Below are positions 26,934 through 32,993 of a stretch of DNA of 64,000 nt, piece after piece (the stretch's first letter is position 1; every line of letters begins with the position of its first letter). The translations under genes were made by a program, and so were the position numbers. Under the pieces are notes generated by a model. It searched no databases. It was not told the origin of the DNA and saw only the letters and a list, made by a program, of their open reading frames with translations. The DNA is from Emcibacter nanhaiensis (GTDB lineage: Bacteria > Pseudomonadota > Alphaproteobacteria > Sphingomonadales > Emcibacteraceae), in contig NZ_VFIY01000005.1 of the NCBI RefSeq assembly GCF_006385175.1, forward strand, positions 131,501 through 195,500. The letters are read 5' to 3'.

Positions 26934-27584
26934 TCAGTCAACCGGGATCAGCCGGTTCAGCTTCTCGGCCATTTCCTCCGGTGTGGTGCCGTAGCTGAAA
27001 TGGCTGAGATAGTCGCCCCGGGGGTCCATCAGGTAGATAATGGACGTATGGTCCACCAGATAATCCGTCGCGGCGGTGCTTTCGGTTTTTTCAGCATAGA
27101 CCCGGTAGGTTTTCTTGATGGTGTTGATTTGCTCGACAGTGCCGGTCAGGCCGATCAGCTTGTCATGGAACAGGGCGACATATTGTTTCATCACTGCAAC
27201 GGTATCCCGCTCCGGATCGACGGTGATAAACAGGGGGGCGATTTTGGCCAGCCGTTTCGCCGGAATCTGGTCGAGTGCGGTGGACATGGCCTGGAGCTCC
27301 GTCGGGCACACATCGGGACAGAAGGTATAGCCAAAATAAATCAGCATATATTTGCCGGCGAAATCCTTTTCGGTCACGGTCTCGCCATCCTGGCTTACAA
27401 GTTCAAACGGGCCGCCGATCAGGGCCTTGGCGTTTTCCCGGGCCGTTCCCTCGGACGACGGGCTGCTGCCAATCACCGAGATCAGCCAGACCGCCGTGAG
27501 GACGGCAATGGCGACAGCTATCAGCAGGCCCAGCGGCAGGGGAAATTTTCCGGTGGAGGGATCGTTGGGATGTCTTTTTGCCAT
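26934..27584 (-). CDS. SCO1/SenC-family copper chaperone
   Basis: 216 residues from the second ATG (the first is at 27608). A single N-terminal membrane anchor ([20 protein letters not shown]) tethers a periplasmic thioredoxin fold with the Cu-binding CPDVCP motif and the third ligand His in [12 protein letters not shown]. Such proteins deliver copper to the CuA centre of cytochrome oxidase or act as thiol reductases; no oxidase gene is in the window. First gene of the operon with the YcgN and YgjP proteins. Confidence 0.92.
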
Positions 27585-27669
27585 AGCTCTGTTTTCTTTT
27601 GCCTTCAAATCTTTTAAACATGTACCTATATAGTGTGGGAACGGGATGAATGGAAGGCTGGAGTTTGTA

Positions 27670-28251
27670 ATGCATTCACAAAGAAACTGGTCGGCGATGG
27701 TGGCGGGGATATCACTTGTGATGTCGCTATTGTGCCTGATGCCCCAGTCAGCGGCCGCCTATTCCGATGCCTATAATTTTCTGAAGGCGGTCAGGGAACA
27801 GAACTACCGCGACGTCAAGATGCTGATCGAGAAAGGCGTCAATGTAAATACCCGCGATTATGATGACGGCTCCACACCGCTGCTGATTGCTGTGTCCAAG
27901 AAGGATACCGCCCTTGCCGGCTACCTGTTGCAAAGTGGCGCCAAACCGGACCTGGACCTGGAAACCACCGGGGAAACCCCCCTGATGATTGCCGCCCGGC
28001 AGCGGGACGAACCTATGGTTTCCCTGCTTCTTAAATATGAGGCAGATATGGACATGGGCGATAAAAACGGCGAAACGGCCCTGATGAAAGCCGTCCGGTC
28101 CAATGCCTTGTCGGTTATCGAACTGATGATCGAAAACCAGGCGGACCTGACCCTGGAGGATTATTCCGGGCGCACCGCTCTGCAACATGCCAAGGAACTG
28201 CGGCGCCGGAACATCGTCCGTATGCTGGAAGAGGCTGGCGCCGACTACTGA
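27670..28251 (+). CDS. Periplasmic ankyrin-repeat protein
   Basis: 193 residues from ATG 27670 preceded by CTGGAG; a start at 27646 would lengthen the signal n-region. A signal peptide (MVAGISLVMSLLCLMPQSAAA) is followed by about four ankyrin repeats: DGSTPLLIAVSKKDTALAGYLL, GETPLMIAARQRDEPMVSLLL, GETALMKAVRSNALSVIELMI and GRTALQHAKELRRRNIVRML (each a typical TPL-x-A pattern). The role is probably protein binding in the periplasm. It ends directly against the EAL-like gene, the two stops forming TGATCA. Confidence 0.85.
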   Translation: MHSQRNWSAMVAGISLVMSLLCLMPQSAAAYSDAYNFLKAVREQNYRDVKMLIEKGVNVNTRDYDDGSTPLLIAVSKKDTALAGYLLQSGAKPDLDLETTGETPLMIAARQRDEPMVSLLLKYEADMDMGDKNGETALMKAVRSNALSVIELMIENQADLTLEDYSGRTALQHAKELRRRNIVRMLEEAGADY

Positions 28252-29586
28252 TCAGCCTTCGAGCAGTTTGTCCACATAATGCCCCTGGAACATATGCAGG
28301 CCCATGTTCTGGCCGAAGCGGATCGCTTCCTCGCTGTCGCAATGGCACAGGACGATCCTCATCTGGCCGTGGTTTTTGAGGGCCTCCAGCAGCGCCCGGC
28401 GGGTTTCATCCTGTAATACCCGGGTATAGGACTTGCGCCAGTAGATTTTCAGAAAATCCACATTCAGCAGACGACGGTCCAGGATGCCGATGGACTGCAG
28501 GTCCATGGCGTCGATGGAGATCTTGTAGCTATAGCCGGACAGTTTTTTCTGGGCGTCATAATAGGCATTGACGTCGGAAAGCACATCGAACAGCTTCATT
28601 TCCAGAATCAGCGGCTGCGAGCTGATGTTCTTATAGGCGGCGACAAACTTGTCGAACTCCCTGGTCATCACCGTATCCACATTGATATTGATGCTGCGGA
28701 CGGTTGCCGGGTCGCCAAAGCCGCTGGCGAGGACGCCCATGAGTTTATGATCAAAACTGCGGGTCAGGCGCTGGAACAGCCATTTATCGGCATGCATGTT
28801 ATAGCCGGGCAGGATTTTCTTGCTGACTTCGTCGACCGAAATGAAAAGCTCTGAGAAGACGGTTTGCGGCCGGGACTCCCCGACGATCACACAGGCATCC
28901 TGGGTCGACACCATGGGAAGCATGTCGATATTCTGCAGGCCGCGCTCCAGCTTGTCGAGCTCCATCGGCCCCATGGGCGGAATTTCCGTGCGCTTGAAAA
29001 TGGTTTCATATTTGGGCCGGGTGGTCGGCTGCGGCGCCTTCCTGACCGCGGGTTCCGCTGGCTCTTCCCTGCGCTTGAGGCTTTTCACCATTTGCTGCAG
29101 GCTGGTCAGGGGAGAGGAAGACGGTTTCTGCTCCACTTCCGCTTCCGTGCCGTTATAGAGGTTTTCCACCAGGCTATAGAATTTCTCGAAATCCTCATCC
29201 AGGTTATACCAGTCGCATAGTTCCGTGTCCCGTCCGGCATCCAGATATTCTTTCAGGACCGGGCTGCTTTTGACCGCCCGGCGGGCATCCAGAATCGCCT
29301 TGTCGAGGACGGTGAGCGGCGCATCCCTGCAGATAAAGAACAGGTCGAAATTGTCATTCCAGTACAGATGGCCGTCGTGGCGCTGTACCAGGGGATTGAA
29401 GGCGGTGGCGATATTGCGGCGGTTTACCGGCTGTTTGTGCATCCGGTCAAGCAGCGAAAAATGAAGATGAATCGCCCGGTATCCCTTGTGATGGCGTTTA
29501 AGGGACCTGGCTTTATGGTAGAGTTCCGCCACCTGTGAAGGTGTCGCGGAACTTTCCGCATATGCATTATTCTTTTCGGGCAACAT
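28252..29586 (-). CDS. Soluble protein with degenerate EAL domain
   Basis: 444 residues, no membrane segment. The last 250 resemble an EAL domain: VFSELFISVDEVSKKILPGY (SEL in place of EAL), LILEMKLFDVLSD where the second acid of ExxE is lost, ISIDAMDLQSIG in place of DDFG, VDFLKIYW, and the closing GLHMFQGHYVDKLLE. Several Mg-binding acids are therefore missing, which argues against phosphodiesterase activity and for ligand binding or protein interaction. The N-terminal 190 residues are unassigned with a proline/charge-rich linker (150-200). Lies next to a LapG-like gene, both on the minus strand. Family name inferred from these similarities. Confidence 0.7.
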   Translation of the reverse strand: MLPEKNNAYAESSATPSQVAELYHKARSLKRHHKGYRAIHLHFSLLDRMHKQPVNRRNIATAFNPLVQRHDGHLYWNDNFDLFFICRDAPLTVLDKAILDARRAVKSSPVLKEYLDAGRDTELCDWYNLDEDFEKFYSLVENLYNGTEAEVEQKPSSSPLTSLQQMVKSLKRREEPAEPAVRKAPQPTTRPKYETIFKRTEIPPMGPMELDKLERGLQNIDMLPMVSTQDACVIVGESRPQTVFSELFISVDEVSKKILPGYNMHADKWLFQRLTRSFDHKLMGVLASGFGDPATVRSININVDTVMTREFDKFVAAYKNISSQPLILEMKLFDVLSDVNAYYDAQKKLSGYSYKISIDAMDLQSIGILDRRLLNVDFLKIYWRKSYTRVLQDETRRALLEALKNHGQMRIVLCHCDSEEAIRFGQNMGLHMFQGHYVDKLLEG

Positions 29587-29657
29587 TTATCCACATTACC
29601 TGTACAGCTACTGTTTGAGCCAGAATAGCCTGAATTTAGTTAAAATTTGGTATGATT

Positions 29658-30317
29658 CTACATGCGGTGCAACCACCAGGCATTTTCGTTGATGGAATAG
29701 AGAGGCTTGTAGTGGAGGATTGTTTTCTCCTGCACCACATACTGGATCTGGTTGTCGAGCACCCAGGTCTTGTCCTTGTCAAACACCACCAGCACCGCAT
29801 GGGCCACATCCAGGTTGGTGTCCTGGACGACGACAATCCGCATGTTGTCGGCCGGCACGCCAAGCGCCTTGAGGCTGTAGTATTTGGCAATGGCATAGTC
29901 TTCGCAATCGCCGTCCTTGGTGAAAAACTGGCGCAGGGTGGCCCAGTAATCCTTGACCCCCCAGTTGATGATGTCGGTGATGTAGGGCGCCCGGTTCATA
30001 TGCCGGTTGATCCGGTCCAGCTGCAGGCTGAGGTCCTTGTTTTTCAGACCGGCAATCAGGTCATTCCATTCGTCGATCGGGCACTGGAAGTTTACCGTCA
30101 CGCGGCACGGCCCCTTGCGTTTGTGCCCGGGGTCCGTTTCCGCCGCGTGGCGTTCGACCATGCCGTTCCATTTTTTGAAGGCGCTGAGCTGGTGGCTCAT
30201 GATTTCGCGCGAGCCGAACAGGCCGTTCTCCCGGGCCTGGACGGGGGTGGACAAAGGCAGGGCAAAACAAAGGATGAGCAGGGAAAATATTCTTTTAAAA
30301 AACTTGTGCCGGCGCAT
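29658..30317 (-). CDS. LapG-like transglutaminase-type cysteine peptidase (BTLCP)
   Basis: 219 residues with a signal peptide (FSLLILCFALPLSTPVQA). The catalytic triad of the bacterial transglutaminase-like family is visible: Cys138 in KDGDCEDYAIAKYY, His173 in VAHAVLVV and Asp188 in TWVLDNQ. Asp137-Cys138-Glu139 matches the calcium-coordinating residues around the LapG cysteine. LapG cleaves adhesins at the cell surface when c-di-GMP falls, restrained by LapD. The expected adhesin is not in the window. Adjacent genes carry EAL- and HD-GYP-like domains, fitting a c-di-GMP link. Confidence 0.87.
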   Translation of the reverse strand: MRRHKFFKRIFSLLILCFALPLSTPVQARENGLFGSREIMSHQLSAFKKWNGMVERHAAETDPGHKRKGPCRVTVNFQCPIDEWNDLIAGLKNKDLSLQLDRINRHMNRAPYITDIINWGVKDYWATLRQFFTKDGDCEDYAIAKYYSLKALGVPADNMRIVVVQDTNLDVAHAVLVVFDKDKTWVLDNQIQYVVQEKTILHYKPLYSINENAWWLHRM

Positions 30318-30459
30318 GGTCGGACGGATCCTGTTATGGTAAAAACTTTATATATTAATGGCTTGCATCCTGTCATAATGGTAAAGATTAAGTGACAGTA
30401 ACGGGCCCTGAAGTCCGGTTTTACCAGTTTATGGTTACCAAACCTTAAAGAGCGGGAAA

Positions 30460-32574
30460 ATGGCAGACAATTCATTCTGGAAAGTCAGAAGCGCCGGCAC
30501 GGCGATTTCCGTGCTGGTTTTGGCGGCGGCGGTGGCGGCCATGATCTTTGCTTTCAGGTTTGCAGAAGCGGAAAAAGAACGTGACCAGCTGGTCTGGCAG
30601 AACCAGATGTCGGTGATCCTGGCCGGCCGCCAGGCGGCGATCGAGGAATGGCTGGCGGAACAGACCACATCGCTGCAAAAACTCACCGACAATGCGGCAC
30701 TCCGGATCTATCTGGCCGGGGTGGCCGACATGCCCGAAGACCAGGCCAGCCGCACTGACGACCAGCTGGCGCAAATGGAATATCTCGGCAACCAGCTCAA
30801 AGGCCATGCCCTGCGCAATGGATTCGTGCCGCCGCGGCTGGAGGAAAGCCGCGAGATAGGCGCCAGTCTTGATGTGGCCCGCGTGGCCGGCCTCGCCCTG
30901 ACCAACGCCCAGGGCCAGGTATTGGTGTCCACCTCGGAAATGCCGTCGGTGACCCGGGCGGTGGCGGCCTATATGGAGGCCGGCGCCGGGACCGAACCGC
31001 TGGTCTACGGCCCCTATCCGGCGGAAAACGCCCAGCCGGTCATCGCTTTTGTGGCGCCCGTTTACGGGGTGCAGGAAGATGAGGATTCCGCCGCCATCGG
31101 GTTTGCCGTGGGGATCAAACTTCTGGACCAGGGCTTTTTCCGCAAACTCAACCAGCCCGGTGACATGTCCCGGACGGCCAGGACTTATCTGGTGCGGGAC
31201 CGGGCCGGGGTTGTGCAATATCTTTCCCCGGTGGAAATGAAGAATGGCGATGTCAACGCCCCCCTGACCTTCATGCTGGATGAAAAGACCCCGTCGCTGG
31301 CGGCGTCCTTTGTCCTCGAAAACCCGGGCGGGTTCGCCGAGCGGATCAATTATGAAGGCGACCGGGTGCTGGTCACCGGCCGGCAGATTGCCGGCACCGA
31401 CTGGAGCCTGGTGCGGACGGTTGATTCCACCGAGGTGCTTGGCCGGGTGGAAACCCGGCGGCGGAATATTTTGTGGATTTCCGGCCTGATTATCCTGACG
31501 GTCACCGTTCTGCTGCTTTTGATCTGGCGCCACGGCGTTTCGGTCCGGGTCAGCCAGGCGGCGGAACGGCAGCGGGTGCTGGCGGCAAAATATGAAAAGC
31601 TCAGTCATTTCATGGAAGTGGTGACCGACAGCCAGCCCACCTCGATCACCGCGGTGGACGAGGAAGGGCATTATACCTTTGCCAACCGGCAGGCGGAAAA
31701 GGAAATCGGCATGGCGCGCCAGGATATTATCGGCCAGCCGTTGAAGAAAATGCTGGAAGCTGCGGCGGCCCGGGAAGCCGCGGCCCATTGCCAGGAAGTG
31801 CTGGATGAGGACCGGGCGGTGTCTACCCTGCTCACCCGGGAGGACGGCCGCATGACCCTGAAGGCCGACTATCTGCCCCTGAATGTGGGAGGAGAAAAAG
31901 GCGTCCTGATGGTGATGGAGGACCTGACCCAGCTGGTCCGGGAACGGGAGCGGCGGGAACAGGCGCTGAAGAACCTGATCCAGACCCTGACCATGATCAT
32001 CGACAGCCGCGACCCCTATAGCGCCAATCATTCCGCCCGGGTTGCCGAAGTGGCCGGCACCATTGCCCGGGAAATGGAGTGTGACGATGTGACCGTGGAG
32101 ACGGTGGAAATTGCCGGCGCGCTGATGAACCTGGGCAAGATCCTGGTGCCGCGCGAGGTCCTGACCCGGCCCGGCGAACTGTCCTCCGAGGAACTGATGA
32201 CGGTGCGGGAAAGCATCCAGAAGAGTGCCGACATGCTGGAAGGGCTCGATTTTGAAGGGCCGGTGGTCGAGACCCTGCGCCAGATTCGCGCTCACTGGGA
32301 TGGCTCCGGTATGCCGGCGGGGCTGGCCGGTGAGGATATCCTGTTGTCCGCCCGTATTGTCGCCGTGGCCAATGCCTTTGTCGCCATGGTCAGTTCCCGC
32401 GCCCACCGGCCGGGACTGGATATGGAAGAATCAGCGCTGGTGCTGATGAATGATGCGGAAAAAATATATGACCGCCGGCCGGTTTCCAGCCTGCTGAATT
32501 ATCTGGAAAACCGCGGCGGGATTGAACAGTGGAAAAGTTTTGGCGTGTTTGACGCGCCGGTGGATGAGGCCTAG
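30460..32574 (+). CDS. Membrane sensor with periplasmic (Cache-type) region, PAS and degenerate HD-GYP domain
   Basis: 704 residues. Membrane segments at about 12-34 and 337-360 enclose a periplasmic region of 300 residues, probably Cache-like. A PAS domain follows at about 385-490 (ITAVDEEGHYTFANRQAEKEIGM), then an HD-GYP-like domain at about 500-690. The latter keeps NHSARVAEVA and HWDGSG but the HD pair is ALMNLGKI (HD replaced by MN), GYP is GMP, and ADxxDA is VANAFVAM. Metal-ligand residues are thus lost and c-di-GMP hydrolysis is unlikely. Convergent with the Hpt gene, stops overlapping by CTAG. Divergent from the LapG-like gene. Confidence 0.8.
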   Translation: MADNSFWKVRSAGTAISVLVLAAAVAAMIFAFRFAEAEKERDQLVWQNQMSVILAGRQAAIEEWLAEQTTSLQKLTDNAALRIYLAGVADMPEDQASRTDDQLAQMEYLGNQLKGHALRNGFVPPRLEESREIGASLDVARVAGLALTNAQGQVLVSTSEMPSVTRAVAAYMEAGAGTEPLVYGPYPAENAQPVIAFVAPVYGVQEDEDSAAIGFAVGIKLLDQGFFRKLNQPGDMSRTARTYLVRDRAGVVQYLSPVEMKNGDVNAPLTFMLDEKTPSLAASFVLENPGGFAERINYEGDRVLVTGRQIAGTDWSLVRTVDSTEVLGRVETRRRNILWISGLIILTVTVLLLLIWRHGVSVRVSQAAERQRVLAAKYEKLSHFMEVVTDSQPTSITAVDEEGHYTFANRQAEKEIGMARQDIIGQPLKKMLEAAAAREAAAHCQEVLDEDRAVSTLLTREDGRMTLKADYLPLNVGGEKGVLMVMEDLTQLVRERERREQALKNLIQTLTMIIDSRDPYSANHSARVAEVAGTIAREMECDDVTVETVEIAGALMNLGKILVPREVLTRPGELSSEELMTVRESIQKSADMLEGLDFEGPVVETLRQIRAHWDGSGMPAGLAGEDILLSARIVAVANAFVAMVSSRAHRPGLDMEESALVLMNDAEKIYDRRPVSSLLNYLENRGGIEQWKSFGVFDAPVDEA

Positions 32575-32993
32575 GCACCGTCCAGGGATTTATCGACCAT
32601 GCTTTTCAGCTGGGCAACCAGTTTCTGCCCGGCATGGCCGCCGGCGCCGGTGATATCGTCACTGATGATCAGGTCCATGGCCTTGAGATGGGCGTTGATA
32701 ATCTTGAAGCTCGCGGTTTCGGCCGGGTCCACCTTGCGCAGGTAGGAGCAGAGCGAGCCGCCGACATCTGTCATCAGGTGATAGCCGAAACTGCCGCCCA
32801 TGCCCTTGATATTATGAGACAGGTCATAGAGCTGTTCCAGCACGCCCGCAGTGAACTTTTTCCGGCCGTCTTCATACAGTTCAATGATACTGAACATGTC
32901 CTTGATCTGGCTGCGGGTCCAGTGGAGGTAGGTATCTGCAAGGCCGTTGATGGCTTCCTGGGCTTGTGAAACGGGATTCAGGGGAGAACTCAT
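32571..32993 (-). CDS. Hpt-domain phosphotransfer-like protein
   Basis: 140 residues, helical. The histidine of the Hpt motif is His60 in YDLSHNIKGMGGSFGYHLMT, with the small residues after it that Hpt domains need; the helices before (HWTRSQIKDMFSIIELYEDG) and after (VGGSLCSYLRKVD) fit. It probably receives or shuttles phosphate between a hybrid kinase and a response regulator, neither of which adjoins it. A perfect CtrA-type site lies 117 bases upstream. Confidence 0.75.
   Translation of the reverse strand: MSSPLNPVSQAQEAINGLADTYLHWTRSQIKDMFSIIELYEDGRKKFTAGVLEQLYDLSHNIKGMGGSFGYHLMTDVGGSLCSYLRKVDPAETASFKIINAHLKAMDLIISDDITGAGGHAGQKLVAQLKSMVDKSLDGA

Follow-up and report, generated by a model that had tools for sequence, protein, structure and literature searches.

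The window considered here, a stretch of 64,000 nucleotides of Emcibacter nanhaiensis DNA, contains a protease gene and a receptor gene that are transcribed away from each other and are flanked by genes for a degenerate GGDEF-EAL protein and an Hpt phosphotransfer protein (Table 1). The GGDEF-EAL gene is co-directional with the protease gene and lies 71 bp downstream of it, and the Hpt gene is convergent with the receptor gene, which it overlaps by 4 bp. An earlier note on this DNA had placed an intact LapG-like protease between a dead EAL protein and a membrane HD-GYP protein, and all three genes do lie there in that arrangement; the note overlooked two features, namely, the degenerate GGDEF-like N-terminal domain of the EAL protein and the Hpt gene. 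The core of the module is best seen as the protease and the HD-GYP protein, with the GGDEF-EAL and Hpt genes as lineage-specific accessory neighbours. Between the EAL gene and a SCO1/SenC gene (window positions 26934-27608) lies a gene (27646-28251) for a small protein with ankyrin repeats and a hydrophobic N-terminus.

Table 1. Features of the protease-receptor locus in the window.
Feature	Position	Strand	Product length	Remarks
Degenerate GGDEF-EAL protein gene	28252-29586	-	444 aa	soluble; Pfam EAL E=1e-7
LapG/DvhG-type periplasmic cysteine protease gene (Peptidase C93, BTLCP)	29658-30317	-	219 aa	Pfam C93 E=3e-18
Divergent intergenic region	30318-30459	.		142 bp, common to the protease and receptor genes; compare the median gap of 135 bp among loci
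DvhD-type receptor gene (dCache-PAS-HD-GYP)	30460-32574	+	704 aa	Pfam HD_5 6.5e-36, PAS_4 and a weak dCache_1
Hpt phosphotransfer protein gene	32571-32993	-		Pfam Hpt 22.0 bits, under the 24.6-bit cut-off

The protease carries a signal-peptide-like segment at its N-terminus and the Cys-His-Asp triad of the C93 fold (C138, H173 and D188), which, together with the GDCED motif, is invariant in 30 aligned sequences; D137 and E139 occupy calcium-site positions. By alignment, the catalytic positions are intact. The nearest solved structures by profile are those of LapG (4u65/4fgo, E about 2e-31), and the match to the NCBIfam family CystProtLapG (NF045674; E=2.4e-28) reaches 98.9 bits, under the 320-bit equivalog cut-off.

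Pfam matches, hydropathy, and an AF2 model give the order of the receptor as a first transmembrane segment (about residues 12-34), a periplasmic dCache domain (about 35-335), a second transmembrane segment (about 336-357), a PAS domain, and an HD-GYP domain; the dCache_1 match is under the Pfam cut-off, and the assignment of this domain is supported by the AF2 model and Foldseek. The HD motif is replaced by M556-N557, the HHE stretch by I609-R610-A611, GYP by GMP, and the later metal-binding Asp by N638. These changes are not private mutations, since the HD motif occurs in none of 95 sequences of the receptor type and Asn occupies the N557 position in 89 of the 93 sequences that extend over it. 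Thus, the description of a membrane Cache/PAS protein with HD-GYP changed to MN/GMP was borne out by the sequence and its 95 relatives, and the HD-GYP domain is, judging from these motifs, catalytically dead and devoid of metal ligands.

The closest relatives of this receptor of known structure are the pieces of DvhD. Among PDB entries, the profile of the receptor family best matches DvhD (9rc0, E=4.5e-62; 9rbz, 4.8e-49), whereas enzyme-type HD-GYPs trail it (e.g., 5z7c, 1.4e-35). The AF2 model was built without templates, and a Foldseek search with it recovers each of the three solved DvhD pieces: the PAS/HD-GYP part (9rc0, 6e-14), the c-di-GMP-bound HD-GYP domain (9rbz, TM 0.8), and the periplasmic dCache domain (9rc2, 7.5e-9, TM 0.77). 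In a tree of a short domain that holds only one Desulfovibrio sequence, receptors and the DvhD type stand apart from HD-GYPs with intact motifs (support 98.5/99). Convergent loss of HD instead of common ancestry with DvhD is disfavoured, as the split stays at 88.5/90 once the motif columns are removed. By sequence and modelled structure, then, the receptor is a DvhD homologue over all three domains.

In published work, DvhD of Desulfovibrio is a c-di-GMP receptor without hydrolytic activity, and its control of the protease DvhG is said to parallel the action of LapD; this c-di-GMP-dependent control, which operates without LapD, emerged from work of 2024-2026 (PMC13090378, which cites Karbelkar et al. 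2024, PNAS). The earlier note had proposed that c-di-GMP is coupled to periplasmic proteolysis otherwise than in the Lap system; as a novelty, this suggestion falls, because the arrangement is already known as DvhD/DvhG. In common with the Desulfovibrio vulgaris pair, the window has a dCache-TM-PAS-dead HD-GYP receptor beside a BTLCP protease and keeps several c-di-GMP contacts. Four of the eight canonical contacts are identical to those of DvhD (Y520, L574, M643 and R647), D665 is a conservative change from E668, and three are altered (K582 to L579, Y621 to M618, and Y652 to H649); at the bridging residues (P564 and R517), the proline is kept, a lysine is replaced by arginine, and an arginine by glutamate. 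By analogy with DvhD, the dead HD-GYP domain would be expected to bind c-di-GMP, and, given the altered contacts, its affinity may differ. There are further differences from the Desulfovibrio system: the window receptor has MN where DvhD has SQ for HD, and GMP for GYP; receptors of the window type have a conserved periplasmic QPG motif and W64; the window genes are divergent, whereas those of DvhD/DvhG lie in an adhesin/T1SS operon; and the window locus has additional GGDEF-EAL and Hpt neighbours, with no substrate found in this genome. Within these differences, the locus is probably a variant of the DvhD/DvhG system.

The pairing of receptor and protease is widely conserved. Among 68 named loci with enough flanking sequence, the protease divergently adjoins the receptor in 62 (median gap 135 bp), and such pairs are found in Emcibacterales, Kordiimonadales, Sneathiellales, Rhodospirillales, and others; the conservation of gene order, which the earlier note had proposed to check, holds for these two genes. 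Across 387 alphaproteobacterial genomes, a C93 match is present in 63 of 73 genomes with the receptor and in 57 of the 314 without it (odds ratio 28, p=3e-28, phylogeny-uncorrected). It could be argued that the dCache/HD-GYP protein acts on its own, as a receptor for a periplasmic ligand or for c-di-GMP, and has only a divergent promoter in common with the protease. In agreement with this, and counting against a protease switch, a C93 match is missing from ten of the 73 genomes with the receptor, among them the single-contig genomes G203 and G411, and in one genome a receptor gene is divergent to an EAL gene with no C93 gene between them. Nonetheless, the strength of the co-occurrence, the DvhD precedent, and the parallel receptor and protease clades make such independence quite improbable. 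In the former two genomes, which belong to one genus (g87 of family f74; L253 in G203, L252 in G411), the receptor is of the MN type and the QPG motif is kept. The EAL gene opposite the receptor in the latter genome (G123, L257:6636-9956) is itself degenerate. In another genome (G030, L155:10501-14028), the receptor frame is 1175 aa long and runs into a peptidase C69/C45-like region, for which a fusion or a frameshift is possible.

Two types of receptor can be distinguished. In some alphaproteobacteria, an operon comprises a T1SS ABC gene, an HlyD gene, a C93 gene, and a receptor gene with SQ for HD, as in DvhD; gene functions were profiled in L153, which has a TolC gene ahead of the operon, and the layout of L151 and L152 is the same. 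The window receptor represents a second, MN type, which is usually divergent from its protease, and both types occur within one genome (L151). Proteases paired with SQ receptors form a clade of their own in a tree that is likewise of a short domain (97/99), as do the SQ receptors, and these parallel clades point to joint inheritance. In the gammaproteobacterium Halochromatium roseum (L240), the genes next to an MN-type pair encode a response-regulator protein with an EAL domain and a protein resembling PAS/GAF histidine kinases; the presence of the pair in this species suggests horizontal transfer.

The two accessory neighbours behave differently from the core pair. The description of a soluble EAL-like protein with SEL and lost metal ligands was accurate: S245-E246-L247 sits on the strand expected for EAL, the acidic ligands, DD included, are for the most part missing, and no membrane segment is seen by hydropathy; SEL itself, however, is not conserved among relatives (T/V/S at position 245 and H/K/R at 247). 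The AF2 model (pLDDT 82.5) adds the degenerate GGDEF-like N-terminal domain, and its best PDB folds are GGDEF-EAL tandems, including the cytoplasmic part of LapD. On the strength of this fold, and because its gene is the next co-directional one after C93 in 38 of 57 loci, the protein might be taken for a soluble LapD-like reader and the main c-di-GMP sensor of the module. This is highly improbable: the family occurs in 108 of the 387 genomes, is widespread without C93, and has no association with it across the class (p=0.27), and, lacking a membrane segment, the protein cannot itself reach the periplasm. As a core partner of the protease it was rejected owing to the same want of co-occurrence. 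Thus, of the idea that two flanking degenerate domains stand in the place of LapD, the half concerning the HD-GYP pseudo-enzyme, which adjoins the protease, stands, whereas the EAL protein is no equal partner; similarly, the expected co-occurrence of three genes narrows to that of the HD-GYP and protease genes, although the EAL gene keeps its frequent position next to C93. In other Alphaproteobacteria, genes of the degenerate EAL family are often paired side by side, apart from any protease found (G197:C14:29003-31050, G406:C1:13343-15402, and others). The Hpt protein carries H60 in the motif HNIKG, with the His invariant in 18 aligned sequences; its gene is downstream in 23 of 60 loci and is part of the neighbourhood in Emcibacter/Kordiimonas-type genomes. 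Together, the GGDEF-EAL and Hpt proteins probably provide some lineages with a second input from the cytoplasm.

Compared with the LapD/LapG/LapA system of Pseudomonas fluorescens, the locus shares a C93 Cys-His-Asp protease and a membrane receptor that joins a domain in the periplasm to a non-catalytic c-di-GMP-type domain on the inner side, but the window receptor carries dCache and HD-GYP domains. The periplasmic domain of LapD (LapD_MoxY_N, PF16448) was not detected in any of the 41 genomes of the order, in a search whose control was weak, the family being silent in the control genomes as well, and no HAMP-GGDEF-EAL membrane receptor was found at the locus; within these bounds, the results agree with the stated absence of LapD, with an HD-GYP protein in its place. 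We consider it likely that the locus encodes an inside-out switch of the DvhD/DvhG type. In such a switch, the receptor would be anchored in the inner membrane and its dead HD-GYP domain would bind cytoplasmic c-di-GMP without degrading it; binding would alter the receptor dimer, and the signal would travel via the PAS domain and the transmembrane helices into the periplasm, where the dCache domain would restrain the C93 protease at high c-di-GMP and let go of it when c-di-GMP drops. Once freed, the protease would cut a protein of the cell envelope, and the anchor of an adhesin secreted by a type I system is the most likely target. Homology with DvhD in three domains, the dead HD site, the intact protease positions, the conserved pairing, and T1SS adjacency in one family were observed here, while c-di-GMP binding, the dCache-protease contact, signal transmission, and the direction of control are modelled on DvhD, and the adhesin substrate is a guess from genomic context.

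C93/BTLCP proteases are reported to be widespread in Alphaproteobacteria and their regulator to be mostly unknown (PMC4241560). Within this context, the receptor, a conserved neighbour across several orders, is a concrete candidate regulator of these proteases. Since it combines this conserved adjacency with a homologue of solved structure, the regulation of C93 proteases becomes directly testable. The findings suggest that DvhD-type receptors may govern many of the LapG-like proteases that occur without LapD in Alphaproteobacteria and that protease receptors with a dead HD-GYP domain extend beyond Desulfovibrio; the text of PMC13090378 names Desulfovibrionales only, and its class-level figure may already include Alphaproteobacteria.

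The substrate of the protease is a separate matter. A LapA-like adhesin with a LapG cleavage site, which the earlier note had proposed to look for, was not found in this genome: no LapA-type retention family was over the cut-off in the 41 genomes (G004 has one weak match), a search of this genome for a FecR-type adhesin returned only two short FecR proteins, and the large T1SS-linked proteins examined in it show no convincing retention domain ahead of a [TAP]AAG site. Among the genes examined that adjoin the pair in the window, none is a T1SS gene; the LssB-type T1SS genes of this genome are on contigs C4, C9, and C10. A possible, if somewhat doubtful, alternative keeps the receptor in control of the protease but replaces the T1SS adhesin, as the substrate, by a factor of capsule or envelope biogenesis. 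C93 proteases can indeed serve non-adhesin pathways, which counts against an adhesin-directed switch: HvyA, a BTLCP, restrains capsulation in Caulobacter and, like the window protease, is an alphaproteobacterial periplasmic C93 enzyme without LapD (PMC4241560). Moreover, the pair is a two-gene unit in the 62 loci and is not beside T1SS genes in most mapped loci. However, unlike the window protease, HvyA is encoded in a capsule export locus and is cell-cycle controlled, and no receptor of the window kind is described for it in the parts of that paper drawn on here. Furthermore, LssB-type T1SS are overrepresented in receptor genomes (odds ratio 5.3, p=1e-8, 387 genomes, phylogeny-uncorrected), and in family f79 the pair adjoins T1SS genes, lying beside an LssB T1SS ABC gene and an HlyD gene in G206 and near a large FecR-NIDO-cadherin-RTX adhesin, an LssB ABC gene, and an HlyD-like gene in G285. 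A broader version, which we regard as unlikely, would have MN-type DvhD-like receptors control, throughout the class, C93 proteases that are detached from the adhesin operon and act on a substrate other than a LapA-type adhesin; in some lineages, this control would integrate two cytoplasmic inputs, one from a dead GGDEF-EAL reader that is soluble and one from an Hpt phosphorelay. Elsewhere in the E. nanhaiensis genome (G000:C4:731922-745449, L245/L246), three RTX-repeat proteins flank an LssB-type T1SS and carry a lipobox-like segment, LAACGGGG or LAGCGGGG, near residue 55, which is perhaps an alternative anchor.
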